From a virus: DNA of 35,054 nucleotides. Made by a program: the position numbers and the translations under genes. The notes under the pieces are model-generated. The model did no database searches and was not told the origin of the DNA. It saw only the letters and a list, made by a program, of their open reading frames with translations. Of the stretch, positions 452 to 31,350 are shown piece after piece (position 1 is the first letter of the stretch; every line of letters starts with the position of its first letter). The DNA lies in the IMG/VR virus record IMGVR_UViG_3300030061_003485, positions 2,980 through 38,033 of that record. One strand, 5' to 3'.

Positions 452-687
452 GTACAAAACCAATGAAACCACTTCCTAAACAACAAGTTCAAGTTGATAT
501 AGGTGATGCGGATACAATGAAATGTCAAGCATGTGGTAATCATGTTTTTATACAAGGTTATATAATAAAGAAAATATCTGCTATCGTTTCACCTACTGGT
601 AAAGAAGTTATCGCTCCAATTCAAGTTTTCAATTGTGGAAATTGTGGAGAGATGTTACCACTAAAAGAATTAGATGAACTTATTTAA
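448..687 (+). CDS. Small zinc-ribbon protein between the clamp-loader genes
   Basis: This protein of 79 residues overlaps the gp44 stop codon by 4 bases (ATGA). Two CxxC knuckles, Cys26/Cys29 (KCQACG) and Cys63/Cys66 (NCGNCG), flank a predicted beta-rich segment, which is the layout of a small zinc ribbon. I do not recognise a specific family. Its place between the two clamp-loader genes suggests co-expression with the replication proteins, but nothing in the sequence shows a contact with them. It could be a DNA- or protein-binding accessory factor. Confidence 0.75.
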   Translation: MSTKPMKPLPKQQVQVDIGDADTMKCQACGNHVFIQGYIIKKISAIVSPTGKEVIAPIQVFNCGNCGEMLPLKELDELI

Positions 688-1093
688 GTGGATAGACGAA
701 CTATTTACCAAGAAAAGACCTTGGGATAGTTTTTCGGAAGAGGAACAAAAGAAGTTTAGTCCGTTTATGGTTAATCGTTATTTAAGTATGAATAATGATT
801 TCTTACCTATTGTTAATCACTTTCAGAGACTAACAATTGAAGTAATGCCATTATCTGCTGTTTATAAGTTCTATTGTTCTTTACTTCCAAATAAGAAAAC
901 ATATCTGAGATATCTTAGTGGGAAGAAAACAAAGGTCAACGAAAAGGTTGTTCCTTTTATTCAAGAATACTTTGAAGTTAGTAAGATACAAGCTGGTGAG
1001 TATTATAACTTAATGACAACAGATGAGTTAAAGTCTTTACTTACTAAGTATGGTAAGACGGAAAAAGAGATAAAAAAGATGGGTGTAAAATGA
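674..1093 (+). CDS. 62: Clamp-loader small subunit (T4 gp62-like)
   Basis: A protein of 139 residues that I read as the divergent gp62 subunit of the phage clamp loader; in T4 one gp62 joins four gp44 subunits. Support comes from the order directly after gp44 and from the N-terminal FMVNRYLSMNNDFLPIVN...FQR segment, a pattern seen in gp62 homologues of marine T4-like phages, followed by a YKFYCSLLP segment. It is shorter than T4 gp62 (187 residues). The start ATG at 674 lies 14 bases inside the zinc-ribbon gene, so the two are translationally coupled. gp62 is poorly conserved, so the call rests on context and partial motif memory. Confidence 0.65.
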   Translation: MNLFKWIDELFTKKRPWDSFSEEEQKKFSPFMVNRYLSMNNDFLPIVNHFQRLTIEVMPLSAVYKFYCSLLPNKKTYLRYLSGKKTKVNEKVVPFIQEYFEVSKIQAGEYYNLMTTDELKSLLTKYGKTEKEIKKMGVK

Positions 1094-8351: not shown

Positions 8352-9248
8352 ATGAAAATATTAGTAACAGGCGGTGTCGGATTTGTCGGTACAAATTTAA
8401 TAAAAAGATTGTTGAATGATGGTCACGATGTAACTTCATTAGACAATTATTCTACGGGTAAAAAAGAAAACGAACAAGAAGGTTGTACATATATAGATGT
8501 AGATATTTCAAATCAGTCTACATTAGAAGCAAAGTTATATTGGGCTTATAAAGATGAAAAACCAGATATAATTTATCATATGGCAGCTCTTGCTAGAATA
8601 CAACCATCGATTAAAAATCCAGTTAAATCTGTTGGGAATAATTTTAATAGTACACTTAACGTATTAGATTGGGCTAAAACAAATAAAAATATTGCAGTAG
8701 TGTTTGCTGGTTCAAGTTCTTTTCATCATGGTTTGTGGGGAAGTCCATACGCTTGGTCAAAACATGCTGGTGAACAATTATGTAAACTATATGATAATGT
8801 TTATAATTTACCAGTTGCTACATGTAGATTTTATAATGTTTACGGACCAAATCAACTTGAAGATGGTGCTTATGCTACAGTATTGGGTATTTTTATGAAA
8901 CAATATCGTGAGGGTAAACCATTAACAATAACTGGTGATGGGAAACAGAGAAGAGATTTTACTCATGTTGATGATATAGTCGATGGTTTAGTAAAATGTG
9001 GTGATTCTTTATTGATTCCAAACGCTTATAACGCTAAAGTTAGTGGGGAAATATTTGAATTGGGTAGGGGAGAAAATCACTCTGTAAATGAAGTTGCTGA
9101 AATGTTTGGTGGAAATTATCCAACTGAATATATTCCAGCAAGAAAAGGTGAGTATGATGTTACCCTAGCAGATTATTCTAAGGCACAGAAAATGTTAGGT
9201 TGGAAACCATTTATAGATTTAAAGGACTATGTAAATGAAATTTGCTGA
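8352..9248 (+). CDS. NAD-dependent epimerase/dehydratase (extended SDR, GalE-like)
   Basis: A protein of 298 residues. The N terminus has the NAD-binding VTGGVGFVGTNL loop, the SLDNYSTG strand end that grips the adenosine ribose, the Ser cluster at 121-123 and the catalytic pair Tyr133/Lys137 (YAWSK), then CRFYNVYGP and the GDGKQRRDFTHVDD substrate-side motif. It belongs to the UDP-hexose 4-epimerase/4,6-dehydratase group. The loop between the Ser strand and the Tyr is about 10 residues shorter than in GalE, so the substrate pocket differs. It abuts the upstream GT2 gene exactly and overlaps the next gene by 14 bases. Confidence 0.88.
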   Translation: MKILVTGGVGFVGTNLIKRLLNDGHDVTSLDNYSTGKKENEQEGCTYIDVDISNQSTLEAKLYWAYKDEKPDIIYHMAALARIQPSIKNPVKSVGNNFNSTLNVLDWAKTNKNIAVVFAGSSSFHHGLWGSPYAWSKHAGEQLCKLYDNVYNLPVATCRFYNVYGPNQLEDGAYATVLGIFMKQYREGKPLTITGDGKQRRDFTHVDDIVDGLVKCGDSLLIPNAYNAKVSGEIFELGRGENHSVNEVAEMFGGNYPTEYIPARKGEYDVTLADYSKAQKMLGWKPFIDLKDYVNEIC

Positions 9249-10302
9249 AGTTTGGGATTACACATATAATGTAAAGTCATTTTATCTTGATGGTGGTGTA
9301 GCAAAATCATTCGAGACTAACGAACCTTACATGTATAAACACTCAATAGCACCTGATTGTTTTTTACAAGGACCAGTTTATCCTTGGCTTTGGGAAGATT
9401 CTTACTACATAAACTTAGCAGAATATGATGGAGTTGCTCCATATGATCCTAGTGTTGACATGGTTCTTTATGTCAACGAAAGAGTTGGGTTAATGAATGA
9501 GAACTACGAAAAATATTCTGTTGATAGTATAAGAAAATCATTTCCAAATGCCGTAATAGTTGGTGAGATTAAAGAGGTAGAACCAAATTTTAATTCAGGA
9601 CCTCATGTTTTATCGCCTGGTGAAGCGGTACATAGACAAGTTAGACCAGAAAGACCAATAAATAGAATTAAATTATTTAACGATTGTGATTTTGTTAATT
9701 TACCAGCTATTCCAAATGGAATTTATTCAACCATACCATATGTTATTGAATTACAAAATAATATTAATAAAGAAATAATTTATACGCCAGGTCCCACAAA
9801 TACTGAGTATGTTTTTGATCATTATTATAGTGATGAAAAGTTAAATTCTATATTTGCTTATACTCCACATCAACATCATAGAAGGGGTAATACACTAGAA
9901 TTTGCTAATTACTTAGGTAATAAATATAATCTACCAGTTCATCATAAACCACTTTATCATGATAAACCTTTTGATTATATGAGTAGTCACGATTTTGTTA
10001 GTTTATGGAGTCCCCATTTATATCATATAAATTTAGATGATATGAAAACTCAACCAGGTCAACAATGTAAACAAGTTGCATGTGTTGGTTCTATTAATAT
10101 GGGTGGAGTAAATGACTCGCATAAATTTTTATATCCAGAAACAGCAACTTGTGATACAAACAAATTAGAAGAAGTTTTTGTAAGTTATCTTGATGATGAA
10201 AATAAAAGATTCGAAACGATTAAATATGCTTGGGAAAAGGTTAACGAAATTTGTGGATTTGATACGGTCAGAAAAGTTTTTGAAGAGGAGTTTTTATCAT
10301 GA
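9235..10302 (+). CDS. Unassigned protein of the sugar cluster, possibly a GT-B-like transferase
   Basis: A protein of 355 residues with no motif I recognise with certainty. Visible features are an aromatic-rich N terminus (KSFYLDGGVAKSF; GPVYPWLWEDSYYIN), alternating strands and helices, a His cluster (PHQHHRRGN), and a C-terminal part with VACVGSINMGGVNDSHKFLYPE, which could match the donor half of a GT-B fold. It overlaps the SDR by 14 bases and the RmlC-like gene by 4, so it is expressed with them. A glycosyltransferase or glycan-linked role is inferred from place and rough fold only. Confidence 0.5.
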   Translation: MKFAEVWDYTYNVKSFYLDGGVAKSFETNEPYMYKHSIAPDCFLQGPVYPWLWEDSYYINLAEYDGVAPYDPSVDMVLYVNERVGLMNENYEKYSVDSIRKSFPNAVIVGEIKEVEPNFNSGPHVLSPGEAVHRQVRPERPINRIKLFNDCDFVNLPAIPNGIYSTIPYVIELQNNINKEIIYTPGPTNTEYVFDHYYSDEKLNSIFAYTPHQHHRRGNTLEFANYLGNKYNLPVHHKPLYHDKPFDYMSSHDFVSLWSPHLYHINLDDMKTQPGQQCKQVACVGSINMGGVNDSHKFLYPETATCDTNKLEEVFVSYLDDENKRFETIKYAWEKVNEICGFDTVRKVFEEEFLS

Positions 10303-10772
10303 TAAATGGTGTTGTAGTTAGAGAACAAGATGCTTTTACAGATTACAGAGGTGACCTTTATACTGTTTGGAAAGATGATGATTTTGATTTAAATTTTAAT
10401 CATGATAAAGTATCTACATCAAGAAAGCATGTTTTGCGTGGTATACATGGTGATAACAAATCTTGGAAGTTAGTTACTTGTTTGTATGGGGAAATTTATT
10501 TTGTTATAGTGGATAACAGAGAATCATCGGATACTTTTTTACAATGGGAATTTATGATGTTAACTGATAGAAATAGAAAACAAGTATTGATTCCACCAGG
10601 AGTTGGAAATGGTTTTTTAGTGATGAGTCATCGTTCTGTCTTTCATTATAAATGGTCGTATGAAGGTGAGTATCCTGATGTAGACCAACAATTTACAATT
10701 AAATGGAATGATCCTATAGTCGGTGTTGACTGGCCTATAGATAATCCTATATTATCAAAGAGGGATAAATAA
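10299..10772 (+). CDS. RmlC-like cupin (dTDP-4-keto-6-deoxyhexose 3,5-epimerase family)
   Basis: A protein of 157 residues in the RmlC fold: DYRGDLYTVW, then HVLRGIHGDNKSWKLVTCLYGEIYFVIVD with the catalytic His50, IPPGVGNGFLVMS, Tyr117 in FHYKWS, and WNDPIVGVDWP, the classical RmlC ending. It epimerises C3 and/or C5 of a 4-keto-6-deoxy sugar nucleotide. It is about 25 residues shorter than typical RmlC, as in single-centre epimerases. No RmlA or RmlB is visible, so the substrate may come from the host or be a GDP-sugar from the gmd product, as in the 6-deoxyheptose pathways. Confidence 0.85.
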   Translation: MINGVVVREQDAFTDYRGDLYTVWKDDDFDLNFNHDKVSTSRKHVLRGIHGDNKSWKLVTCLYGEIYFVIVDNRESSDTFLQWEFMMLTDRNRKQVLIPPGVGNGFLVMSHRSVFHYKWSYEGEYPDVDQQFTIKWNDPIVGVDWPIDNPILSKRDK

Positions 10773-11401
10773 TGTTACAAATACCAAGTCATTTGGAAAA
10801 ACAAAAAGAAGTTACAATTACAAAAGAAGAAATGATTTCTTTTGAGACTGAAATAAAAGAAAAATATGAAGATGGTAAGATACCAGCACCGATTCATTTG
10901 TCAAAAGATAATGAAGACGAGTTGATTGAAATATTTCAATATATAAATGAAGATGATTGGATTGTTTCAGCTTGGAGAAATCATTATCATGCTCTTTTAC
11001 ATGGGTTTGATAAACAAGAATTAATGGATAGTGTAGTTGAAGGTAGAAGTATGGCTACTAGTAGTGATGTCCATAAGTTTTATTCTTCAGCCATAGTAGG
11101 TGGGATAATACCAATTGCGTTAGGTCTTTCTATGGCTTTAGGTAAAGAAGATTCTAATAGACGAGTGTGGTGTTTCATTGGAGATATGACTTTTGAAACT
11201 GGTGTTTTTCATGAGGCATATAAATACTCAAGAAACTTTGAGTTACCACTAGAGTTTGTGGTAGAAGATAATAATCTAAGTGTACATACTCCAACAGATG
11301 CTGCTTGGGGAGTTAGACAAGAAATACCAAATGATATAGTTTATTACAAATATGAAAACGGATATCCACACCATGGCACTGGTGCATGGGTTAACTTTTA
11401 G
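10772..11401 (+). CDS. Reduced E1-alpha-like thiamine diphosphate enzyme subunit
   Basis: A protein of 209 residues that matches the core of 2-oxo acid dehydrogenase E1-alpha: SAWRNHYHALLHGFD resembles the YRDHGHALARG block, followed by GGIIPIALGLSMALG and the thiamine diphosphate motif from GD at 137-138 (GDM instead of the usual GDG) to Asn167-Asn168 (VEDNN). Normal E1-alpha has some 320-400 residues; here the chain ends about 40 residues after the motif. The E1-beta-like partner follows after 8 bases. No E2 or E3 gene is present, so a dehydrogenase complex is unlikely. Transfer of a C2 unit to a keto-sugar is the better inference. Confidence 0.8.
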   Translation: MLQIPSHLEKQKEVTITKEEMISFETEIKEKYEDGKIPAPIHLSKDNEDELIEIFQYINEDDWIVSAWRNHYHALLHGFDKQELMDSVVEGRSMATSSDVHKFYSSAIVGGIIPIALGLSMALGKEDSNRRVWCFIGDMTFETGVFHEAYKYSRNFELPLEFVVEDNNLSVHTPTDAAWGVRQEIPNDIVYYKYENGYPHHGTGAWVNF

Positions 11402-11412
11402 AGGTTATAATG
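11401..11412 (+). promoter_or_regulatory. Recurrent junction motif GAGGTTATAATG (copy 2)
   Basis: The TAG stop of the E1-alpha-like gene runs into AGGTTATA and the ATG of the E1-beta-like gene, identical over 14 bases (TAGAGGTTATAATG) to the junction at 1432-1445. It serves as a ribosome-binding site and ensures translation of the second subunit. Confidence 0.5.
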
Positions 11413-11940
11413 AAATATAAAGAAGAGTTAATAAGGTCAATGAAATGGCTTGGAGAGAAAGAAAATACATTATTTTTAGGACAAGCCACATCTTTTAGTG
11501 GTCATGCTATCTCAGGAACTTTAACAGAAGTACCAAAAGAAAAACTGATTGAATTACCAGTTATGGAAGAAGTACAAATGGGAATGTGTGCTGGTCTTTC
11601 GTTAGAAGGATATGTTCCCATATCAATTTATCCTAGATTTAATTTCATGATGTTGGCTATAAATCAGTTAGTAAATCATATCGATACGATGAGAAAAATG
11701 ACTAAGGGTATGTTAGTACCAAGAGTTATAACTAGAGTTGCTGTTGGTGCTAAAAAACCACTTGATGGTGGGGAACAACACACTCAAGATTTTACTGAGT
11801 CTTTAAAAAGTATGTTAACTGATACTGTGGTTGTAGAGTTAGAAGAACCAAATGAAATATTTTCAGCGTTTCAACGAGCATATAATAGACACGGTTCTAC
11901 AGTTCTTATCGAGTGGGGGGATTATTATAGTGAAAAGTGA
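11410..11940 (+). CDS. Reduced E1-beta-like subunit (transketolase pyrimidine-binding domain only)
   Basis: A protein of 176 residues corresponding to the pyrimidine-binding domain of E1-beta/transketolase: LFLGQATSFSG, ELPVMEEVQMGMCAGLSLEGYVPI with Glu53, the likely cofactor-activating Glu, FNFMMLAINQLVNHIDTMR, and VPRVITRVAVG...GGEQHTQDF. The C-terminal transketolase domain (about 130 residues) that normally follows is absent. With the E1-alpha-like protein just upstream it can form the split active site of a thiamine diphosphate enzyme. The last 11 bases overlap the next gene. Confidence 0.8.
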   Translation: MKYKEELIRSMKWLGEKENTLFLGQATSFSGHAISGTLTEVPKEKLIELPVMEEVQMGMCAGLSLEGYVPISIYPRFNFMMLAINQLVNHIDTMRKMTKGMLVPRVITRVAVGAKKPLDGGEQHTQDFTESLKSMLTDTVVVELEEPNEIFSAFQRAYNRHGSTVLIEWGDYYSEK

Positions 11941-12505
11941 GGGAATGGAAATAGTTGATGATTTTTTACCTAAAGATGTGGTTAATAATTTAGAAAGACT
12001 GTATTCTGAGGAACAAGATTGGGAACTTTTAGACCAAGTACGAGAAAATCATTATAGACATGTTTTTAAAAACAACTCTGATTATTTTCCAAATGAAGAT
12101 GAACACTACTTAGCCAAGTTTAATAGGTCTACTAATCTAGAAAATAAAATCAATGATGTTTTTGAAAAATACTTTAAGCCAAAATTAATTGAATTTTCTC
12201 AAAAAAAACTCTTGGAATTTGATGTAAGATGTTATAAATTAGGACATGGAAATTTTTATAGAACACATGTCGATGATTACGCTGGTACTGTGGGTTGTGT
12301 TTTTTATCTCACAAAAAGATGGTGTTGGGATTGGGGTGGAATACTTCACATTGGTGAAAGAGATGGAGAGTTGACATCTATATTTCCAAAATTTAATCGA
12401 ATAGTAATTCATGATATGAAAAAATTTAGGTTCAATCATTTTATAAGTCCTGTAACGGAATATGCTAAAGAATCAAGATATTCAATTGTGTCATTTAACA
12501 AGTAG
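11930..12505 (+). CDS. 2-oxoglutarate/Fe(II) dioxygenase (prolyl-4-hydroxylase-like)
   Basis: A protein of 191 residues. The iron ligands are His113 and Asp115 (RTHVDDYAG) and His170 (FNHFISPV), with Arg183 (SRYSIVSF) as the 2-oxoglutarate anchor; the strand WDWGGILHI between them is typical of P4H-like oxygenases. I place the start at GTG 11930, which follows a GGGGGG ribosome site and overlaps the E1-beta gene by 11 bases. A longer open frame from 11852 gives an N-terminal extension unrelated to the family, and ATG 11945 has a GAGGG too close to it. The substrate is likely a sugar or glycan precursor, by context only. Confidence 0.82.
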   Translation: MKSEGMEIVDDFLPKDVVNNLERLYSEEQDWELLDQVRENHYRHVFKNNSDYFPNEDEHYLAKFNRSTNLENKINDVFEKYFKPKLIEFSQKKLLEFDVRCYKLGHGNFYRTHVDDYAGTVGCVFYLTKRWCWDWGGILHIGERDGELTSIFPKFNRIVIHDMKKFRFNHFISPVTEYAKESRYSIVSFNK

Positions 12506-12513
12506 GAGAAAAA

Positions 12514-13416
12514 GTGTTTAAAGATAAGAATATACTAGTAACTGGTGGTAATGGTATGGTTGGTCGTACTTTAGTTAAGTTACTTAAAAAAGAGTTACCA
12601 AAAAATATAACTATTGCTGATTTACCAACTTATGATTTAAGAGATAGAGATGTTTGTGAAAATATTTGTTTTAATCAGGATATCATATTTCATGTCGCTG
12701 GAATCAAAGGCTCACCTCAAAGATGTATGGAATCACCAGCATCATTTAGTGTCCCTATGATTCAATTTAATGCTAATATGATTGAAGCTGCTTATAATGC
12801 TAAAGTGGAGTGGTTTTTATACACAAGTTCAGTTGGTGTATACCACCCAGCAGATGTATTTGTAGAAGATGATGTATGGGGAACATTTCCATCCGAAAAT
12901 GATTGGTATGCTGGTTGGGCTAAAAGAGTTGGTGAAATGAATGTTGAAGCTTATATGAAACAACATGATTGGAATAAGTGTTCTATTGTTAGACCTGCTA
13001 ATATTTACGGAGCAAATGATAATTTTGGTCAATGGTCTATGGTTGTTCCATCATTAATTAAGAAGGCAGTAGAGTCAAAGGATGGTAAACTTAAAGTATG
13101 GGGTGACGGTTCACCAATAAGAGATTTAATCTATGCTGAAGATGTTGCTCGTGGTATGATGCACATGGTACAAAATAAAGTAACAGAACCAGTAAATCTT
13201 GGTAGTGGTACGGGAGTTACAATTAAAAAAGTAGCAGAAATAGTAGCTAGTAATTTTGATTTGGAAATAGAATGGGAAGCAGATAAACCAATGGGTGATT
13301 CAAAAAGAGTTATGGACACTAGCCGTGCTGAATCACATGGATTTAAAGCTGATACTAGTTTTGAAGATGGTATTAAAGAGACAATTAAATGGTATAAGGA
13401 GAACAAAAATGTTTAA
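12514..13416 (+). CDS. NAD-dependent epimerase/reductase (extended SDR) with a shifted Tyr
   Basis: A protein of 300 residues starting at GTG 12514 behind GGAGAA. The nucleotide-binding loop VTGGNGMVGRTL, Ser105/Ser106 (YTSSVGVY), RPANIYG and GDGSPIRDLIYAEDVA place it in the extended SDR group near GDP-fucose synthase (WcaG). In the catalytic region, WYAGWAKR, Tyr132 and Lys137 are five residues apart instead of four; Ala133 stands where Tyr is expected. The enzyme may tolerate the shift or use another acid. The next gene is a close relative with a different change at the same site. Confidence 0.85.
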   Translation: MFKDKNILVTGGNGMVGRTLVKLLKKELPKNITIADLPTYDLRDRDVCENICFNQDIIFHVAGIKGSPQRCMESPASFSVPMIQFNANMIEAAYNAKVEWFLYTSSVGVYHPADVFVEDDVWGTFPSENDWYAGWAKRVGEMNVEAYMKQHDWNKCSIVRPANIYGANDNFGQWSMVVPSLIKKAVESKDGKLKVWGDGSPIRDLIYAEDVARGMMHMVQNKVTEPVNLGSGTGVTIKKVAEIVASNFDLEIEWEADKPMGDSKRVMDTSRAESHGFKADTSFEDGIKETIKWYKENKNV

Positions 13417-14356
13417 AGATGCTAAAGTAGTAGTTACTGGTGGTAGTGGTTTTATTGGAACACATTTCATAAATGAGTTGTTATCAAGAGGTGCTAACGT
13501 TAGGACACATACACATGTAAATCCTCTAAAAATTTATGATGATAGAATTGAAGTAATAGATAACATAGATTTAGAAAAAATTGAGGATGCTATCACACTA
13601 ATAGATGGAGCTGATTATGTAGTTCATACTGCTGGATACATTGGTCATCCATCTAGTATTGCTACGGATTTTCAAATAGGACTAAATCAGATAGTGACTG
13701 CTACAAATGTAATTGAAGCTTGTGTTAAAACAGGTGTCAAGGGTTTTGTAGATTTAAATAGTTCTACTGGTTATCCAGACAGAAGACATCCTATAAAAGA
13801 AGAAGAGTATTGGGATGAAGAACCATATATTTCTTATTATGGTTACGGATGGATGAGAAGGTATAGAGAAAAAGTATTTGAACACGCTTCTCATTTAACT
13901 GATATGAAAATAGGAATAGCCAGAGGTACTGCTATCTTCGGTCCTTATGATAATTTTGATTTAAATACTTGTCATGTAGTTCCAGCACTTATCAAAAGAG
14001 TATTAAGTGACGAGAATCCTTTTATAGCTTGGGGTAGTCCTGATGTCGTTAGAGATTTTCTTTATGTTAAAGATGTAGTTAATGGTTGTTTATTGGTTTT
14101 AGAAAAGGGAGAATCAATGAGTCCTTACAATGTTGGTATGGGAGAACCAATTACTATTGGGGAGATACTAAATTGTATACTCATGGTAACAGGAAAAACT
14201 CCAGTTGTAGAGTGGGATAATTCAAAGCCAACTACGATACCATTTAGGATGGTCAGTACGGATAAGATTAAAGATGAGTTAGGATTTAAACCACAATATA
14301 CTTTTGAAGATGGTATAAGAGAAACTATAGAATGGTTTAAGGAGAATGATAAATGA
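13409..14356 (+). CDS. NAD-dependent epimerase/reductase (extended SDR) with Arg for catalytic Lys
   Basis: A protein of 315 residues from ATG 13409, which follows AAGGAG; an upstream in-frame start at 13295 lies deep in the preceding gene and is rejected. It has VTGGSGFIGTHF, the Ser-rich strand DLNSSTGY, then YYGYGWMRRYREK, in which Tyr146 is in place but position 150 is Arg, so the YxxxK signature reads YxxxR. ARGTAIFGPYDNF and the GSPDVVRDFLYVKDVV segment follow. It is a paralogue of the gene before it, overlapping by 8 bases. An epimerase or reductase on a GDP- or CDP-linked sugar is likely. The altered Lys makes the exact chemistry uncertain. Confidence 0.84.
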   Translation: MFKDAKVVVTGGSGFIGTHFINELLSRGANVRTHTHVNPLKIYDDRIEVIDNIDLEKIEDAITLIDGADYVVHTAGYIGHPSSIATDFQIGLNQIVTATNVIEACVKTGVKGFVDLNSSTGYPDRRHPIKEEEYWDEEPYISYYGYGWMRRYREKVFEHASHLTDMKIGIARGTAIFGPYDNFDLNTCHVVPALIKRVLSDENPFIAWGSPDVVRDFLYVKDVVNGCLLVLEKGESMSPYNVGMGEPITIGEILNCILMVTGKTPVVEWDNSKPTTIPFRMVSTDKIKDELGFKPQYTFEDGIRETIEWFKENDK

Positions 14357-15531
14357 AAAAATTAACTCTACCATTGATGTCAGACAATATTAGTAGAGAA
14401 GATGTTGATTGTTTGATTGATTTTTTAAAACAAAATCCAGTACCAAGATTAACTAATGGAGATAAAGTTATAAAGTTTGAAAAAGCTTGGTCAGAATGGT
14501 TAGGTGTAAAACATAGTGTATTCGTTAACTCAGGAACTGCTGCTAATGAGTTGTCTATGTTGGCATTAAAACATTTTTATCCAAAAGGTGGTGAGATAAT
14601 AATACCACCACTTACTTGGATATCGGATGTTAACTCAGTTTTATTTGCTGGTTTCGATCCTGTTTTTGTAGATATAAACTTAAATAATCTATCATTTGAT
14701 TTAGATAAATTAGAGAATAGTATTACCGATAAAACAAGAGCTATATTTGTAACTCATGTTTTGGGGTTGAACGCTATATCTGATAGGTTGTTAAAAATAT
14801 GTGAAGATAATAATATCTTGTTAATTGAAGATGTATGTGAGTCTCATGGTGCTACATATAACAACACTAAATTAGGTTCAATTGGATTTGCTAGTAACTT
14901 TAGTTTTTACTTTGCTCACCATATGAGCACTATAGAGGGTGGAATGATATCAACTAATGATGACCACTTTTATCAGTTATGTAGGTCGTTAAGGTCACAT
15001 GGTATGGTTAGAGAATTTACAGATGATAATTTGATAAAAAAATACACCGAAGATTACTCAGATTTAAATAAAGATTTTATTTTTATAGGTCCTGCACATA
15101 ATTTTAGAAGTACAGAAATAAATGCTGTTCTAGGATTGTGTCAGTTGGATAGATTAGATTCTAATAATGAAAAAAGAATCGAAAATTATAAATACTTTAT
15201 TGATAACTTAGATTCAAAAAAATATCATACTGATTTTGAGATGAATGGTCAATGTAACTATGCTTTTACCGTGGTTATGAAAAATTCTGATTTTGATTTG
15301 AGAGATAGAATTGAAGAAATGTTAAAAGATAATGGAATAGAGTTTAGGAGAGGAATGTCAGGTGGTGGTAATCAGATGAGACAACCTTATTTTAGAGATA
15401 AAGATTTAGAGTTAGTCGATTTTCCTGTTATAGAACATGTTCATAATTTTAGTTGGTACATTGGTAATTATCCAACTTTAGAACGAGATAAAATAGATAA
15501 TTTAATAAGGTTACTGAATGAAGTTAAGTGA
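14353..15531 (+). CDS. ColD-like PLP-dependent sugar 3-dehydratase (DegT fold, His for Lys)
   Basis: A protein of 392 residues of the DegT/DnrJ/EryC1/StrS fold: VNSGTAANELSMLAL, IIIPPLTWISDVNSV and LLIEDVCESHGA, in which the Asp binds the PLP ring. The residue that would hold PLP as a Schiff base is His189 (SFYFAHHMSTIEGG) instead of Lys. The same swap is found in ColD (GDP-4-keto-6-deoxymannose 3-dehydratase) and RfbH/E1 and marks dehydratases, not aminotransferases. There is no cysteine cluster for the [2Fe-2S] centre of RfbH, and the length equals that of ColD. Gmd (32355) would supply the ColD substrate. It overlaps the preceding SDR by 4 bases. Confidence 0.85.
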   Translation: MKKLTLPLMSDNISREDVDCLIDFLKQNPVPRLTNGDKVIKFEKAWSEWLGVKHSVFVNSGTAANELSMLALKHFYPKGGEIIIPPLTWISDVNSVLFAGFDPVFVDINLNNLSFDLDKLENSITDKTRAIFVTHVLGLNAISDRLLKICEDNNILLIEDVCESHGATYNNTKLGSIGFASNFSFYFAHHMSTIEGGMISTNDDHFYQLCRSLRSHGMVREFTDDNLIKKYTEDYSDLNKDFIFIGPAHNFRSTEINAVLGLCQLDRLDSNNEKRIENYKYFIDNLDSKKYHTDFEMNGQCNYAFTVVMKNSDFDLRDRIEEMLKDNGIEFRRGMSGGGNQMRQPYFRDKDLELVDFPVIEHVHNFSWYIGNYPTLERDKIDNLIRLLNEVK

Positions 15532-15811
15532 TTATTATAAGGGTTATCTGAAGTTACATAGACACCCAAAGACTAGATTATTACATTTCATAGGACAATG
15601 GTTTACATTATTTTTTGCTGGTTTTGTATTCTATAATTGGTATTGGTATTTAATTCCATTTATCCCTTTTGTAATTTATCCGTTTGCTTGGAGTGGTCAT
15701 TATTTTTTTGAGAAGAATGAACCAGCAGCTTTTACCGATCCAGTAAAAGCAAAGTTATCGGATTGGATTATGTTTAAAGATATATTATTAGGAAGATTAA
15801 AAATATGGTAA
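15518..15811 (+). CDS. Mpo1/DUF962-like membrane protein
   Basis: A protein of 97 residues with the DUF962 signature: YYKGYLKLHRHPKTRLLHFIGQW at the N terminus (His14, His16, His23), two membrane segments (about 26-58), then WSGHYFFEKNEPAAF with His61. Yeast Mpo1 of this family is an Fe(II)-dependent dioxygenase that shortens 2-hydroxy fatty acids, and these histidines are the likely metal ligands. The protein is at the short end of the family. It overlaps the dehydratase gene by 14 bases and the next SDR by 7. A lipid-linked role in glycan assembly is possible but not shown. Confidence 0.8.
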   Translation: MKLSDYYKGYLKLHRHPKTRLLHFIGQWFTLFFAGFVFYNWYWYLIPFIPFVIYPFAWSGHYFFEKNEPAAFTDPVKAKLSDWIMFKDILLGRLKIW

Positions 15812-16743
15812 GAGTATTAATAACAGGTGGGGCTGGATATTTAGGTTCAACCTTAACTCAACATTTATTAGACAACTTTTACAAGGTTGATGTATTAGAT
15901 AATTTAATGTACAAACAGACATCTCTATTACATTTATGTTCACATAAAAACTTTAATTTTATCAAACATGATGTAACCGACTTTGATTATTTATCAGAAA
16001 TAGTATCTAACTATGATGTTATAATACCTCTGGCTGCTATAGTTGGTGCTCCAGCATGTGATGAGAACAAGGAGTTAGCAACAAAGATAAACTTTGAACA
16101 GATAAAATGTATTGTTGATAATCTTAGAGATGACCAAAAACTAATCATGCCAAATACAAATAGTCAGTATGGAAGTTCTAAAGATGTTATAACAGAGAAG
16201 AGTCCATTTAATCCACTTTCACATTATGCTGTAACAAAGTGTGATGCTGAAGATTATATAATGGAGAGTGAAAAGGGAATTTGTTTAAGGTTAGCAACTG
16301 TATTTGGTGCCTCATCAAGAATGAGAACAGATTTGCTGGTTAATGATTTCGTACATAAAGCGATTGTGGATGGTTACATAGTTCTATTTGAATCACATTT
16401 CAAAAGAAATTACATTCATGTGAAAGATATTGCTCGAACATTCGAGTTCTGTATTGATAATTGGAACAAGATGAAGGGTGATGTGTTCAATGTAGGTTTA
16501 TCAGACTCTAATCTTAGTAAGTTAGAGTTGGCACAAAAGATAAAAACACAGATACCCAACTTTGTTATCAAAGAAGATGATTATAAAACTGATTTTGATA
16601 ATAGAGATTATATAGTATCTAATGAAAAACTTGAATCTTATGGATGGAAACCTTATTTCAGTATAGGTTTTGGTATAAGAGAATTGATTAATGCATATAA
16701 AATGATTATTAAACATAACGATAGGAATTTTACAAACTTATGA
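15805..16743 (+). CDS. NAD-dependent epimerase/dehydratase (extended SDR)
   Basis: A protein of 312 residues with LITGGAGYLGSTL, VDVLDNLMY, IPLAAIVGAPACDEN, the strand PNTNSQYG (Asn/Ser instead of SSSxxYG), the catalytic YAVTK (Tyr and Lys both in place), CLRLATVFG and FKRNYIHVKDIA. This is the group of bacterial SDRs annotated as UDP-glucose 4-epimerases or dTDP-4-keto reductases within O-antigen clusters; the exact substrate is unclear. It overlaps both neighbours (7 and 4 bases). Confidence 0.85.
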   Translation: MVRVLITGGAGYLGSTLTQHLLDNFYKVDVLDNLMYKQTSLLHLCSHKNFNFIKHDVTDFDYLSEIVSNYDVIIPLAAIVGAPACDENKELATKINFEQIKCIVDNLRDDQKLIMPNTNSQYGSSKDVITEKSPFNPLSHYAVTKCDAEDYIMESEKGICLRLATVFGASSRMRTDLLVNDFVHKAIVDGYIVLFESHFKRNYIHVKDIARTFEFCIDNWNKMKGDVFNVGLSDSNLSKLELAQKIKTQIPNFVIKEDDYKTDFDNRDYIVSNEKLESYGWKPYFSIGFGIRELINAYKMIIKHNDRNFTNL

Positions 16744-17150
16744 GTAAGAAAAAAGAAAGAAAGTGGTTACCCACACTAAATGAATTAGTAGATAGGTTAA
16801 GTATTCACCAGTTGAAAGAGGTCTTTATACCAGAAAATAAAGATAACTATGCAAAAGAAATAAAAGACATGATGCACGACATAGACTTGATACTAGAAGA
16901 AATGGATGGGAAGGTTACTGCTGAAACCATTCGTGCTATTATAGTGTTAGCACAAATGAATACTCATATTTGGTATAATGAAACTAAGGTTCGTAATGGA
17001 GATGGTGATGGTGATTTACATTTAACACATGGATTAAATGGTCTGCGTAATATTGCTGGTAATAAAATCGCTGAGTGTGTGGGTGGTAGAAAAGATTATA
17101 AGATAGATTGTTTAGCTTCAGAATTTGAAGATTGGGAGGTGAGTTGGTGA
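16740..17150 (+). CDS. Helical phage protein, unknown function
   Basis: A protein of 136 residues, helical and charged. The N-terminal block WLPTLNELVDRLSIHQLKEVF reminds me of small proteins found beside sugar genes in T4-like marine phages. The middle (DKVRNGDGDGDLHLTHGLNGLRN-type region, around residues 80-105) contains an acidic Gly-Asp run and two histidines, which could bind metal. I know of no function. It ends 4 bases into the kinase gene and begins with ATGA overlap, so it is expressed with its neighbours. Confidence 0.55.
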   Translation: MSKKKERKWLPTLNELVDRLSIHQLKEVFIPENKDNYAKEIKDMMHDIDLILEEMDGKVTAETIRAIIVLAQMNTHIWYNETKVRNGDGDGDLHLTHGLNGLRNIAGNKIAECVGGRKDYKIDCLASEFEDWEVSW

Positions 17151-17914
17151 AGATATTAGTTGTAGGAGATAGTTGTAAGGATGTATTCATTTATGGTGAT
17201 ATCACCAGATTAACACCTGAAGCTCCTGTTCCTGTTTTTAATCCTTTAAGGGAGACGGAGAACTATGGTATGGCTCGTAATGTGTCTAGTAATGTAGAAG
17301 CCTTAAAGGTAGATATTCATACAATAACTAATCCTAATAGTATAAAAAAGGTTAGATATGTTGACGATAAATCTAATCAACTAGTGTTACGAGTTGACGA
17401 ACACGATTATTGTGATAGAATAGATGATATGATATTATCAATGATACAGGATAATGAATGCTATATACCAATGTCAGGTAAGGTTAAGGTTGATGCTATA
17501 ATCATATCAGATTATTGTAAAGGATTTTTATGGGAAGAGGATATTAAATTTATTTGTGAGAATAATGATAATGTTTTTGTTGATACAAAAAAGAAGTTGG
17601 GTGAGTGGGTAGAAAATTGTACTTACTTAAAAATAAATTCATTAGAGTATGAAAGTAATGAAGAATTTTTAAATGAATATTATGGTATCATGGATAAAAC
17701 CATAGTGACAAAGGGTAGAAAAGGATGTCTGTTTCGAGATGAGATTTATTCAACCGATGATGTTCCTGTAAAAGATATATCCGGCGCTGGAGATACCTTT
17801 CTCGCTGGGTTAGTTGTCAGGTATGTTCAAACTGGTGATATAATAGAATCTATAAGTTTTGCTCAAGATTGTACTAAGAGGGTTGTGCAAAAACATGGGG
17901 TATCCACTATATGA
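17147..17914 (+). CDS. PfkB-family sugar kinase (RfaE/HldE kinase-domain-like)
   Basis: A protein of 255 residues of the ribokinase fold. The N terminus ILVVGDSCKDVFIYG and RLTPEAPVPVF are the hallmark of the heptose-7-phosphate kinase domain of HldE/RfaE. The C-terminal DISGAGDTF carries the anion hole and the catalytic Asp216. The start is GTG 17147, six bases after GGAGGT. It is about 60 residues shorter than the HldE kinase domain and lacks the nucleotidyltransferase half. It probably phosphorylates a heptose or a related sugar for nucleotide-sugar synthesis. No gmhA, gmhB or hddC is seen in the window. Confidence 0.82.
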   Translation: MKILVVGDSCKDVFIYGDITRLTPEAPVPVFNPLRETENYGMARNVSSNVEALKVDIHTITNPNSIKKVRYVDDKSNQLVLRVDEHDYCDRIDDMILSMIQDNECYIPMSGKVKVDAIIISDYCKGFLWEEDIKFICENNDNVFVDTKKKLGEWVENCTYLKINSLEYESNEEFLNEYYGIMDKTIVTKGRKGCLFRDEIYSTDDVPVKDISGAGDTFLAGLVVRYVQTGDIIESISFAQDCTKRVVQKHGVSTI

Positions 17915-19290
17915 AAAATATAGTTGTCATACCAGCAGTTAAACCAAAAGATAAAAATTTAGATAAGTTTGGTGGTTGGGGTTGGATGTCTTATTCAATT
18001 GACGCTTGGAAGTTTTGGTGTCAGAAACATGGTTATGAACTTGTCGTTTATGATAAGACTTCCATAGAGGATACTACTAAGTACAGAGTTACGGTTCAAA
18101 GGTGGTTTGATATTTTTAACTTCTTAGATGATAAGGGAATTAAGTATGACCAAATTTGTATGACGGATGCTTCATACATACCAAGATGGGATATGCCAGA
18201 TATATTTAAAATGACAGATGGTAAGTTTACAACGACTCATGAGTATGACAATTTTAAATGGGTTTATGAAAGTATTGAAGGGTATAAAGAATTTTTTAAT
18301 AACTATGATTTAAATATTTTTGATTACTTTAATACTGGCTTAGTTATATTTAATCAATCTCATAGAGATGTATTTGAAAAATTTAAAAAGGTTTACACCG
18401 AAAATGTAGATTATTTTGTCGATAAACAATTGACCTTGAGAAGAGGTACAGATCAAACTCCTTTCAATTATGTATTGAGAATGAATGATATTGATATAAA
18501 GTTTTTATCACCACATTACAGAATGTCTCATCTACCAAGAAAAGATTTATTATCTCATAATTGGCAGTTAAATGAAGATAAGACTCCATTTTTTATAAAG
18601 TATGGTTTGTTATGGGGGTTTAGCGGTTTTGATAAAACTCAAAGAAATAAATTGATGGAAGATGTATGGGGTTTAATAAAACACAATTATGTTAAAGAAC
18701 CTACAATAGAATCTTTGATTGAAAGTATCAACGAAGATAAACATACAAATCCAACTACAACATCAAATAAATTTAAAACTGATGTGTGGGATTTTTTCAA
18801 GGATTTTAAAGATAAAGTTTGTGTTGAATTTGGAACACATAAAGGACAGACTACAAAAATATTATCATATTGTTTCAAACATGTATTTACAATTAATAAA
18901 GACTTACAATCTTTTGATAATGCTAAAATGTTAAATGTTGGTATAGATAACATCACTTATGTTCCATTTGATTTATACTCAAATGGTGAGTTGGAAATTC
19001 AAGAAGCATCTGTTGCTTTAATTGATGCAGGTCATCAATATGACCAAGTAGTTTCGGATATCAAAAGATGTATGTCGGTTGATAAAATAAGAGGTGAAGA
19101 TTTTTACATCGTATTTGATGATTATGGGATGAATATACATAAAGACCATGTTAAAAAAGCTGTCGATGAATATATTAGTAATGGTTATATCGAAGTTGTT
19201 AAAAAAATAGGGTGTGAACCAGGACATGTTTTTGATGGTAATAAAGTATTAAATGATTACGAGGGTTTAATCTGTAAGGTGGTAGAATGA
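17911..19290 (+). CDS. Glycosyltransferase fused to a SAM methyltransferase
   Basis: A protein of 459 residues in two domains. Residues 1-260 are a GT-A-like transferase with YDQICMTDASYI (Asp86; DxS where DxD is usual), FDYFNTGLVIFNQSH and RRGTDQTPFNYVLR, similar over its length to the next gene. Residues 295-459 are a class I methyltransferase: VCVEFGTHKGQTTKIL (302-316) is the SAM-binding loop, and VALIDAGHQYDQVVSDIKR (Asp372, His375) is the mark of Methyltransf_24-type enzymes. The protein would add a sugar and methylate it or a neighbouring residue. It overlaps the kinase gene and the next gene by 4 bases each. Confidence 0.82.
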   Translation: MKNIVVIPAVKPKDKNLDKFGGWGWMSYSIDAWKFWCQKHGYELVVYDKTSIEDTTKYRVTVQRWFDIFNFLDDKGIKYDQICMTDASYIPRWDMPDIFKMTDGKFTTTHEYDNFKWVYESIEGYKEFFNNYDLNIFDYFNTGLVIFNQSHRDVFEKFKKVYTENVDYFVDKQLTLRRGTDQTPFNYVLRMNDIDIKFLSPHYRMSHLPRKDLLSHNWQLNEDKTPFFIKYGLLWGFSGFDKTQRNKLMEDVWGLIKHNYVKEPTIESLIESINEDKHTNPTTTSNKFKTDVWDFFKDFKDKVCVEFGTHKGQTTKILSYCFKHVFTINKDLQSFDNAKMLNVGIDNITYVPFDLYSNGELEIQEASVALIDAGHQYDQVVSDIKRCMSVDKIRGEDFYIVFDDYGMNIHKDHVKKAVDEYISNGYIEVVKKIGCEPGHVFDGNKVLNDYEGLICKVVE

Positions 19291-20021: not shown

Positions 20022-20827
20022 CAATAGAACAACAGGCTCAATCACTTAAAGAATATGGAGTACTTGTATTAGAGAATGCACTATCCGAAGATTATGTAGA
20101 GAGGTGTAAGAATGATATTTTCGATTATTTCAGTAACCTTGATAACATTTCAAAGGGATATAGGGATTCTAATCAAACTATAAAATCAGATGGTTTTAAT
20201 TATGTTGGTTTAGAGACTTGTGCTGAAATAGTTGAAAATTCAGATGTCATTGATATTATGCGTGAAGTAACTAATAATTCTATTAGGTGGGTTCATCATA
20301 GTGATGTTCATATAAATTTTTCAGGTGCTAAACAATTTCATACTGATGAACAAGCAAGGTTATGGCCATCTGAAACTCTAAATAACGTTAGTTATAAAGA
20401 TAAAGAATATGAAGTCTATAGATTGGCTACTTACTTGACAGAACATACGGAAGAAGATGGAGCTCCATTTTTTGTAAAACCAAAATCACACACTAGTTCT
20501 TATACAGGTATAAGTTATCCTGATGCTTATGAAGTAAATGCTAAACCAGGTGATGTAGTTCTATTTCATGCTAGGTTAAGGCATCAAGGTGGTAACATGA
20601 AAGGTGATAGAGCTGCTATGTTTTGGGCTTTTGGTGATGATAACTTACATAGTAAATATCATTCTATGGCTGCTATTAAAAGACAAATGAATCAAAACTT
20701 TCAAGATGAGTATGTTTTAAGTAAGACTCTATCGGATATGCTTGATAAACATAACATAGTCTATGACATAGATAAGGATGATTTAAAACATTTTATGGAA
20801 ATAAGCCCAAATTTGGACTCGTACTAA
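20018..20827 (+). CDS. PhyH-family 2OG/Fe(II) dioxygenase
   Basis: A protein of 269 residues from GTG 20018, overlapping the preceding TGA, with AAAGG upstream. The N-terminal LKEYGVLVLENALSEDYVERCK is the typical start of phytanoyl-CoA dioxygenase-like proteins. The iron ligands are His108 and Asp110 (QFHTDEQ) and His189 (RLRHQGG), with Arg198 for 2-oxoglutarate; PGDVVLFHARLRH is the conserved strand. Phage and bacterial PhyH proteins hydroxylate small molecules or sugars. The place just before the NeuB fusion suggests a sugar or glycan substrate. Confidence 0.85.
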   Translation: MTIEQQAQSLKEYGVLVLENALSEDYVERCKNDIFDYFSNLDNISKGYRDSNQTIKSDGFNYVGLETCAEIVENSDVIDIMREVTNNSIRWVHHSDVHINFSGAKQFHTDEQARLWPSETLNNVSYKDKEYEVYRLATYLTEHTEEDGAPFFVKPKSHTSSYTGISYPDAYEVNAKPGDVVLFHARLRHQGGNMKGDRAAMFWAFGDDNLHSKYHSMAAIKRQMNQNFQDEYVLSKTLSDMLDKHNIVYDIDKDDLKHFMEISPNLDSY

Positions 20828-22737
20828 TGAATAAGTTAAAACAAATAGTAAAAGGTAACTTGGATTCAACTTACATTATTTCAGAAATTGGTATAAATCA
20901 TAATGGTTCATTAGATACTGCTTTAAATTTGATTTATAAATCTAAAGAAGCTGGTGTAGATGCTGTTAAATTTCAAAAAAGAAATTTAAATACTATTTAT
21001 GGTGAAAAACTTTTAGAAGATTCAAATAGTCAAGAATGGAGTTTTGAATATCTCATACCAATATTAAAAGAAGTAGAGTTATCAAGAAAAGATTACTTGT
21101 CAATAAAAAGAACTTGTAAGAAATTAGACTTAGATTTAATTATTACACCAATGGATGAAGACTCTGTAGATTTTATTTCGGATTTAGGAGTTAGTGGTAT
21201 AAAAATTGCTTCGGCTGATATGACTAATTTTTCTTTAATAGAAAAATGTTCTAAACTCAATTTACCTTTTATAATTTCAACTGGTATGTGGACTGAGGAT
21301 GATATAAAAAATTGTACTAATCATTATAAACAAATTGAAATTGATTATTGTTTACTCTTAGCAAATTCTACATACCCATCACCATTTGAAGATTTAAATG
21401 TTAATTTTATTACTAAGTTAAGTAAATATTCAAAATCAGTAGGTTACTCTGGTCACGAAAGAGGTATATTTATACCAATATCAGCAGTTACTTTGGGTGC
21501 TAGAGTAATTGAAAAACATATTACTCTCGATAGAAATCAAAAAGGTCCTGACCATAAAGCATCAATGTTACCATCCGAGTGGAAATCAATGGTAGATAAT
21601 ATTCGTAACTTGGAATTAGCATTTGGAAATACAAAACAAGTCAATCAAGCCGAATTATTAAATAAAGAAGTGTTTGCTAAATCTGCTTATTCTACGAGTG
21701 AATTAAAAAATGGACATGTATTACAGAAAAATGATGTTTATTTTAGGTCACCTGGTAAAGGTATATTTGAACATGAGTTATCTAATTTTCTAGGTAGGTC
21801 TTTAAAAGGTGATGTAGATAAGGAAAAATGTATATCTAAAGAGGATTTTGAAACTATAACCAAAATTGTTAATTGGAGAAAATTTGATTTTGAAAAAAAA
21901 TGGGGTGTAAAATGTAGATTTCATGACTATGAAAAATACAAAGTTTTAAAAGCTCCTGTTATGGAATTTCATTGTTCCGAGTCCGATTTGGATATGGACT
22001 TTGATGTAAAAAACATAGACTCAGAATTAATCATACATGCTCCTGAAATAGTTGAAAGAGAAATAGTTGATATATGTTCTAACGATGAAAGGCTAGTTGG
22101 TAAGTCAATAGATATATTACAAAGAACTATAGATAAAACAATAAAGATGTCGTCTAATTGGCCACTTGCAAAACCTAAAATGGTTGTTCACTTAGGTGGT
22201 ATGTCCTTAGATAAAGTAGAAGAAAAAAAATATAAAGTCAATAGTCTGTCTACACATGAAGAAATGATATCAATTGCTATTGAAAACTTTAAACGATTAG
22301 ATTATTCAAAAGATGATATAGACATTTTACCTGAAAATTTACCACCAAGACCTTGGTATTTAGGGGGTGAGTGGTTTCAATATGGATACGGGCCAAGTTC
22401 CGATATGATTAGATTTTGTGAAGAGTTTGATTTGAAGATGACATTTGATTTATCACATGCTCAACTTTGGTGTAATTTAGAGGGTATCACATTGAGACAG
22501 TACGCTGAAGAAGTAATGCCATATGTTGCACATGTACATATTTCAGATGCTGTAGGATTGAATGGTGAGGGAGTTCAAATAAACGAGGGTGATATAGATT
22601 TTAATTCTATCATGTCTCTTTTCAAATCATATGATTTTTCTTGGGTAACTGAAATTTGGAGTGGTCACTTACATGAGGGATGTGGTACATATAAAGCGAT
22701 GTGTGATTTGAACGATAATTTTAGGAGTTCGTTATGA
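20827..22737 (+). CDS. NeuB-type nonulosonate synthase fused to a xylose-isomerase-like barrel
   Basis: A protein of 636 residues. Residues 1-270 are a NeuB barrel: SEIGINHNGSLD, VKFQKRN, IKIASADMTN, YSGHERG (His210), EKHITLD (His231) and GPDHKASM. Residues 280-345 are the SAF (antifreeze-like) domain, ending in RSPGKGI...FLGRSLKGDV. Residues 375-636 form a second TIM barrel of the AP-endonuclease-2/xylose isomerase type with candidate metal ligands Glu503 (LPEN), Asp541 and His544 (FDLSHAQ), His571 (HVHISD) and Glu609. NeuB condenses phosphoenolpyruvate with an N-acyl hexosamine. The second barrel may isomerise or epimerise the sugar. No separate start is seen at the domain border. Confidence 0.87.
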   Translation: MNKLKQIVKGNLDSTYIISEIGINHNGSLDTALNLIYKSKEAGVDAVKFQKRNLNTIYGEKLLEDSNSQEWSFEYLIPILKEVELSRKDYLSIKRTCKKLDLDLIITPMDEDSVDFISDLGVSGIKIASADMTNFSLIEKCSKLNLPFIISTGMWTEDDIKNCTNHYKQIEIDYCLLLANSTYPSPFEDLNVNFITKLSKYSKSVGYSGHERGIFIPISAVTLGARVIEKHITLDRNQKGPDHKASMLPSEWKSMVDNIRNLELAFGNTKQVNQAELLNKEVFAKSAYSTSELKNGHVLQKNDVYFRSPGKGIFEHELSNFLGRSLKGDVDKEKCISKEDFETITKIVNWRKFDFEKKWGVKCRFHDYEKYKVLKAPVMEFHCSESDLDMDFDVKNIDSELIIHAPEIVEREIVDICSNDERLVGKSIDILQRTIDKTIKMSSNWPLAKPKMVVHLGGMSLDKVEEKKYKVNSLSTHEEMISIAIENFKRLDYSKDDIDILPENLPPRPWYLGGEWFQYGYGPSSDMIRFCEEFDLKMTFDLSHAQLWCNLEGITLRQYAEEVMPYVAHVHISDAVGLNGEGVQINEGDIDFNSIMSLFKSYDFSWVTEIWSGHLHEGCGTYKAMCDLNDNFRSSL

Positions 22738-23384
22738 AAATAGTATCGGTTATACCGGCTCGTGGTGGTAGTAAAGGGATACCTAAAAAAAATATAATAG
22801 ATGTTAATGGAAAACCATTAATTTATTATTCGATAAATGCTTCATTACAGTCAACTGTTGATGAGACTTGGGTTACAACTGATTCGGAAGAAATTGCTGA
22901 TGTTTCCAAAGAACATGGAGCAAAGGTATTAATTAGACCAGATGAATTAGCAGATGATATTATAATGCCTGATGACTCGTTAATTCATTTTGCCGACAAT
23001 CAAAACTTCGATATATTGGTTTTTATACAACCAACTTCTCCGATGATAAAGAAGGAATACATTGATGGTGCTATAAGTATGTTACTTACAGATGGTTATG
23101 ATTCTATTTTTACTGCTCATAAATATCATTGGTTACCAGAGTGGTTATGTGCTAATAATACTTGTGCAAGTGTAGGTTGGGATGTCAATGCTAGACCTAG
23201 AAGACAAGATGTAGGTCAAAATATTTACATAGAAAATGGAATGTTTTATATTACCACTAGAGAATCTTTATTGAAAACAAAATTAAGATATGGTGGGAAG
23301 ATAGGTATGTTTGAGATTTCATTGTTAGATAGTTTTGGTGTAGACACTTATGATGATTTAGATTTAGTTAGAAAGATAATATGA
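22734..23384 (+). CDS. neuA: NeuA-like CMP-nonulosonate synthetase (acylneuraminate cytidylyltransferase)
   Basis: A protein of 216 residues, the usual length for the family. The nucleotide-binding loop PARGGSKGIPKKNI lies at residues 8-21, followed by TTDSEEIADVSKEHGAKVLIRP, FIQPTSPMIKKEYI and NIYIENGMFYITTRESL, the conserved order of NeuA/LegF-type enzymes. It links CTP to the nonulosonate made by the NeuB domain and releases CMP-sugar, the donor for the GT29 protein downstream. The ATGA overlap joins it to the NeuB gene. Confidence 0.88.
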   Translation: MKIVSVIPARGGSKGIPKKNIIDVNGKPLIYYSINASLQSTVDETWVTTDSEEIADVSKEHGAKVLIRPDELADDIIMPDDSLIHFADNQNFDILVFIQPTSPMIKKEYIDGAISMLLTDGYDSIFTAHKYHWLPEWLCANNTCASVGWDVNARPRRQDVGQNIYIENGMFYITTRESLLKTKLRYGGKIGMFEISLLDSFGVDTYDDLDLVRKII

Positions 23385-31340: not shown

Positions 31341-31350
31341 GGTTATAATG
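31339..31350 (+). promoter_or_regulatory. Recurrent junction motif GAGGTTATAATG (copy 3)
   Basis: Follows the TGA stop of the oxygenase gene and includes the ATG of the next gene. It is identical over 12 bases with the copies at 1434 and 11401, which precede unrelated genes. Confidence 0.5.

Follow-up and report, generated by a model that had tools for sequence, protein, structure and literature searches.

A minimal E1-type thiamine enzyme pair, widespread in phages, is a candidate for C2 branching of nucleotide-activated keto-deoxy sugars

Within a 35,054-nucleotide stretch of viral DNA (hereafter, the window), two adjacent plus-strand genes encode a miniature E1-type thiamine enzyme. The first (10772-11401) begins with ATG and encodes an E1-alpha of 209 aa that comprises only the PP domain; the second (11410-11940), also with an ATG start, encodes an E1-beta of 176 aa that comprises only the PYR domain. 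As judged from sequence comparisons and structure models, the pair has E1 cores, conserved catalytic residues, a native truncation, and a conserved gene neighbourhood. The best explanation, which we consider reasonably probable, is that it acts as a minimal free-standing E1 that would transfer a C2 unit to a nucleotide-activated keto-deoxy sugar. We favour this function because E1 catalytic residues are found here together with neighbours that make 4-keto-(3-deoxy) sugars.

Domain searches placed both reading frames in the E1 family. The alpha frame matched PF00676 (E1_dh, 1.8e-12) and TIGR03182 (PDH E1-alpha, 1e-23), and the beta frame matched PF02779 (Transket_pyr, 1.7e-08) and PRK09212 (E1-beta, 1.2e-10). 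The only Pfam domains found for the pair were E1_dh, DXP_synthase_N as a second match, and Transket_pyr. An earlier note on this DNA had given the same coordinates and lengths and had described the products as cofactor-binding cores of a 2-oxo acid dehydrogenase E1; both points were borne out. Both chains also fall within a single phage profile of 405 positions, phrog_34187, which holds alpha and then beta in one family and carries no functional annotation: alpha aligned to positions 6-200 (2.2e-51) and beta to positions 237-405 (2.8e-27). In profile comparisons with hhalign, alpha matched E1-alpha through the ThDP motif, and beta covered residues 8-189 of the approximately 335 residues of E1-beta, stopping at the PYR boundary. 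Neither Transketolase_C (PF02780) nor the E2 catalytic domain PF00198 was found in the whole 38,033-base IMG/VR record, which may be a fragment, and no open reading frame of the window matched E2 or E3. These results agree with the earlier note, which had reported an E1-beta without its C-terminal domain and no E2/E3. The record comes from a T4-like phage, since a clamp-loader A match lies at window positions 674-1093 and the preceding 3 kb of the record hold genes that we take, from their sequence, to encode a DNA polymerase, a sliding clamp, and a clamp loader of T4 type.

We assessed conservation in dereplicated sets of 80 alphas and 66 betas with viral, bacterial, and archaeal members. Eight alpha residues (R69, H71, G137, D138, E165, N167, S170, and H200) were invariant in 80 of 80 rows; the window alpha carries the motifs R69/H71, GDM with Asp138, E165-D-N167, and a terminal YPH200H. 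On the beta side, His124 and Glu53, the latter described as kept in the earlier note, were invariant in all 66. The companion claim that the ThDP motif is kept held only in part: the Mg-ligand Asp and Asn (Asp138/Asn167) are retained in every alpha, but the motif in the window reads GDM rather than GDG, and the third residue across the set is Met in 65 alphas, whereas 13 have Gly and 2 have Ala. Family-wide, the length of beta is mostly 174-190 aa in the 66 members, and the following gene nearly always overlaps it or lies within a few bases. The uniformly short beta and the directly downstream gene rule out a decayed or truncated gene. On this comparative evidence, the truncated pair is a native conserved family, and it is probably catalytically active.

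A first IMG/VR scan recovered 25 relatives, and a profile scan then gave at least 599 pattern matches, at least 509 of them confirmed, which rules out a chance open reading frame and shows that the pair, as the earlier note had suggested checking, recurs in other phages. Separate alpha and beta genes are also present in a 735-kb uncultured phage, and in a more distant phage group one to several genes lie between them. A fused form of 402 aa occurs in Synechococcus phage S-SM2, Prochlorococcus phage P-TIM68, and 20 IMG/VR loci. In the two named phages, it is annotated as a “transketolase central region-containing protein”, with no function. It shares the phrog_34187 family and both domains with the pair of the window, but is a single chain, has GDG, and is accompanied by a zinc alcohol dehydrogenase (ZnADH) and an HldE-like kinase, with no ColD or RmlC. 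Cellular members are few overall and belong to Verrucomicrobiota, Pelagibacterales, Omnitrophota, and archaea; GTDB genomes contributed nine loci. Within the wider taxa of three members they are rare as well: the order to which the Pelagibacteraceae member belongs has them in 4 of 162 genomes, the class that includes the Verrucomicrobiae member in 12 of 286, and the phylum that includes the Parcubacteria member in 1 of 287. In a phylogenetic tree, whose outgroup included some ordinary E1 enzymes from plasmids, the mini family separated from ordinary E1-alpha with 99/99 support, and the fused members (from phages, plus loci L035 and L038) formed their own branch, apart from the split phage members. 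The plasmid search itself returned ordinary E1 enzymes only. A match in Acinetobacter phage MD-2021a was discarded: it belongs to an acetoin-dehydrogenase operon that includes E2, lies among bacterial genes, and looks like host DNA.

Structure models, computed with AlphaFold2 for single chains only, were obtained for the window alpha (pLDDT 92.8, pTM 0.90) and for a fused homologue, L131 (pLDDT 92.2, pTM 0.93). The closest fold to the alpha model was human PDH E1-alpha (1ni4_A; Z 20.0, rmsd 2.5, 196 residues), in an alignment that extends to residue 270 of that chain, followed by branched-chain E1 (Z ~19), a split transketolase (14.8), and DXS (14.4). The fused model aligned best with transketolase monomers (Z ~21, 350 residues), as would be expected when one chain holds both PP and PYR. 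Sequence and the alpha model together favour a PP subunit of E1 type rather than transketolase type. Given its end-of-chain position in the fold alignment, alpha His200 may be the counterpart of PDH His263. The earlier note had named a model unable to form the split cofactor site as evidence against its reading; the halves, modelled as single chains, fold confidently as E1/transketolase and so gave no such evidence.

The pair lies among sugar genes, all on the plus strand. Directly upstream is an RmlC-like NDP-4-keto-sugar 3,5-epimerase (10299-10772; PF00908, 1.5e-40) with an RGxH50 motif whose H50 is invariant in 96 homologues. The gene following the pair encodes a 2-oxoglutarate/Fe(II) oxygenase (11930-12505; PF13640, 3.2e-09); its listed start is 11852, and the likelier start, judging by the sequence, is GTG at 11930 or ATG at 11945. 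Two short-chain dehydrogenases/reductases (SDRs) come next, one resembling Fcl (GDP-fucose synthase; 12514-13416; NF047922, 7.7e-49) and a second, Fcl-like NDP-sugar SDR (13409-14356; PF01370, 2.8e-40). Neither has a conserved Tyr at the canonical YxxxK position, so that the reaction of both is uncertain, and we set aside their treatment as proven reductases. Three genes downstream of the oxygenase is a ColD/RfbH-type PMP-dependent sugar 3-dehydratase (14353-15531), whose best PDB match is ColD (2gms, 2.8e-50). Its motif AHHMSTIEGG places His at the position of the PLP lysine, as do 64 of 64 ColD homologues of the loci, which rules out an aminotransferase. Enzymes of this kind, as established for ColD and DdhC, eliminate the hydroxyl group at C3 from 4-keto-6-deoxy sugars. 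Further along are an NDP-sugar SDR (15805-16743) and an HldE-domain-I-like heptose kinase (17132-17914; TIGR02198, 2.1e-31). Homologues of this SDR also occur within cellular E1 cassettes: it is 45-51% identical to SDRs adjoining E1-alpha/beta in L159, L160, L161, and L163, and 46% to one in L033. The kinase has a homologue directly after E1 in the fused clade, and ends the cassette in many phages. A GDP-mannose 4,6-dehydratase (GMD; 32355-33314; TIGR01472, 429.9 bits against a cut-off of 415), not adjacent to the pair, is a possible source of the 4-keto-6-deoxy sugar. The RmlC-, ColD-, Fcl-, and GMD-like neighbours uphold the description of the pair as lying inside a nucleotide-sugar cluster.

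A set of such genes recurs across phages. We counted neighbours within 6 kb in 52 dereplicated split-type phage loci, where the recurring order is RmlC-like, E1-alpha, E1-beta, ColD-like, Fcl-like SDR, sometimes an RmlD-like gene, SDR, GMD-like, and HldE-like kinase. E1-beta and Fcl were each present in 47 loci, RmlC in 45, the SDR in 42, GMD-like genes in 29, ColD in 27, and a PfkB/HldE-like kinase in 18; a 2-oxoglutarate/Fe(II) oxygenase lay close to E1 in 12. ColD was not found within 6 kb in the other 25 loci, and 22 of these had none in the whole record (records may be fragments), ruling it out as an obligatory partner in phages. ColD homologues are otherwise scarce in phages: at 1e-30, they were found in 57 of 50,697 records, nearly all from Synechococcus phages, with ~40% identity in the rows listed. 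The fused clade differs, having ZnADH in 9 of 9 loci, as against 0 of 52 in the split type, and a PfkB/HldE-like kinase in 9 of 9; none of the nine contained ColD or RmlC.

In cells, a distinct cassette is found in Verrucomicrobiota and one Pelagibacterales genome. It consists of a GHMP kinase (HddA-like), E1-alpha, E1-beta, a ColD of the His type, and a B12-binding radical-SAM protein (loci L159-L163, L165-L167, and L169); frequent additions are a nucleotidyltransferase and a relative of the SDR at 15805 of the window. These cassettes are independent evidence for the link between E1 and ColD. A small protein that resembles a NUDIX hydrolase in sequence is encoded beside the cellular cassette in L160 (7844-8386) and L170 (6511-7098). 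Radical-SAM SPASM genes surround some other cellular members (L036, L037, and L039). The cluster that holds the mini-E1 also contains a separate split transketolase pair (~280 + 305 aa) in L031 (7277-9026) and in the phages L087 (11370-13117), L089, and L099. Overall, the neighbours point to keto-deoxysugar chemistry. Co-occurrence alone cannot assign a substrate, because these neighbourhoods are large glycan islands, and the acceptor may differ between clades, given the ColD-less loci, the context of the fused clade, the SPASM neighbours, and the second split transketolase.

We propose the following route. The PP and PYR subunits would bind ThDP-Mg at the alpha/beta interface and decarboxylate a small 2-oxo acid, with pyruvate as the likeliest donor. 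The resulting two-carbon carbanion would then be passed to the carbonyl group of a keto-deoxy sugar in its nucleotide-activated form, giving a C2-branched sugar that the SDRs could reduce. In this phage, the acceptor would most likely be a GDP-4-keto-3,6-dideoxy hexose or heptose, produced through the GMD-like 4,6-dehydratase, the ColD-like 3-dehydratase, and the RmlC-like epimerase, and phage glycosyltransferases may use the product on host or virion glycans. With GHMP and HldE-like kinases among the neighbours, the backbone may be a heptose; a hexose is also possible, since the kinases score far below curated cut-offs and GMD scores above its own. We put forward only tentatively the wider idea that a minimal E1 ligase in hundreds of phages and in scattered bacteria and archaea builds C2-branched deoxy-sugars, possibly on heptose. 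If it is true, a heptose backbone would yield nine-carbon branched sugars, not yet described, within phage glycan islands.

Sugar branching by full-length E1 pairs is already known. AviB1/AviB2 (avilamycin), Pau11/Pau12 or Plm8/Plm9 (paulomycin), and KbDH-alpha/beta (kibdelomycin) are alpha-keto acid dehydrogenase 2 sugar-branching pairs, proposed or shown to add a pyruvate-derived C2 unit to keto-deoxysugars (PMC4425429, PMC4753412, PMC4802897, PMC12247030). The AviB1/AviB2 precedent cited in the earlier note is real, as is that of Pau11/Pau12 (PMC4425429, PMC12247030). Like the phage pair, these are E1-alpha/E1-beta-like duos inside a deoxysugar cluster; they differ in belonging to actinobacterial antibiotic clusters and in having a full-length beta of ~340 aa, against 209 + 176 aa and usually GDM in phages. 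Since Pau12 has 345 aa (and Pau11 325 aa; PMC4425429) and the phage beta 176 aa, the phage pair appears as a reduced variant. In yersiniose biosynthesis, YerE performs C2 addition on CDP-3,6-dideoxy-4-keto-glucose (PMC12247030). YerE resembles the pair, in the role proposed here, as a ThDP enzyme that puts an acetyl group on a 3,6-dideoxy-4-keto sugar, but it is a single flavoprotein (FAD) of the decarboxylase superfamily, outside the E1 family, acting on a CDP-sugar, whereas the phage pair consists of two E1-type chains. The YerE substrate is made with an E1/ColD-type dehydratase. Human PDH E1 (1ni4) shares with the pair the fold of both cores and the catalytic Glu and His; the phage differs in a record without a lipoyl E2, a beta without the C-terminal domain, and a shortened alpha.

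Several other functions were weighed against sugar branching. A minimal transketolase- or DXS-like enzyme could supply a ketose or heptose precursor for a linked heptose pathway, and heptose genes do adjoin E1: HldE-kinase, HldE-nucleotidyltransferase, and an annotated phosphoheptose isomerase next to fused E1 genes and at some split loci, and HddA-like and HddC-like genes in Verrucomicrobiota and Omnitrophota. The DXP_synthase_N match and the alignment of the fused model with transketolase monomers fit this role as well. We nevertheless regard it as unlikely, as sequence and the alpha fold favour E1, four of the clusters already hold a separate split transketolase pair, hosts normally own a transketolase, and the presence of RmlC or ColD beside E1 would be left unexplained. 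The family might also divide its functions, with the RmlC/ColD-linked split form branching nucleotide keto-sugars and the fused ZnADH-E1-kinase form building or extending a sugar, free or phosphorylated, for later activation by the kinase and a nucleotidyltransferase. Both the separate branch of the fused members and the unmixed contexts are consistent with such a division, which we consider, as a whole, decidedly improbable, as the same residues are invariant in the two forms and a difference in acceptor alone could suffice. The fused clade is, all the same, where the earlier note's branched-sugar reading fits less well. That note had counted homologues clearly tied to another pathway against itself; the fused clade, which has ZnADH and an HldE-like kinase in place of ColD/RmlC, may be such a case. 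Elsewhere the gene context speaks strongly for the branched-sugar idea, with ColD flanking the pair in phages and, independently, in Verrucomicrobiota and Pelagibacterales, and with the RmlC-like epimerase, Fcl-like SDRs, and GMD-like dehydratase beside it in most phages.

The acceptor could lie outside sugar metabolism altogether, were the pair to work alone, decarboxylating a 2-oxo acid or donating an acyl group to a lipid, an amino group, or a peptide. The SPASM neighbours and the bare PP/PYR core left once the C-terminal domain is gone would suit such a role, which is very unlikely considering that nearly all phage loci are sugar-nucleotide clusters. As for a catalytically dead remnant, the GDM motif and the missing domain might suggest one, yet catalytic and metal residues are invariant across viral, bacterial, and archaeal members, the truncation is uniform, and the next gene overlaps or adjoins; we give this hardly any credence. 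C2 branching of a nucleotide-activated keto-deoxy sugar stays our preferred reading.

In openly licensed papers, we found no description of an E1 form with PP and PYR only, phage-widespread and linked to ColD, and nothing relevant on branched-chain sugars or E1 enzymes of phages. Our analysis proposes a testable function for phrog_34187, with its more than 500 environmental members, describes a putative E1-type carboligase architecture of PP and PYR only, and predicts a class of phage-made branched sugars. If active, the pair would also provide a compact C-C ligase, independent of lipoamide, with which to make tertiary alcohols.

The remainder of the sugar island in the window offers further observations. 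Between the ColD-like gene and the SDR, positions 15518-15811 encode a small Mpo1-like protein (2-hydroxy fatty acid dioxygenase family), and positions 16740-17150 encode a 136-aa protein with no Pfam match, which many related phages also have beside their E1 cassette, mostly at 63-73% conservation. Large open reading frames of the island at 9235-10302, 17911-19290, 28706-29680, and 30426-32358 likewise had no Pfam match. Finally, phage-encoded nonulosonic-acid genes occupy positions 20827-24142 and 29677-30429. They encode a fusion of NeuB with a xylose-isomerase-like domain, another NeuB that is short, a CMP-sugar transferase, and a glycosyltransferase of GT29, the sialyltransferase family.
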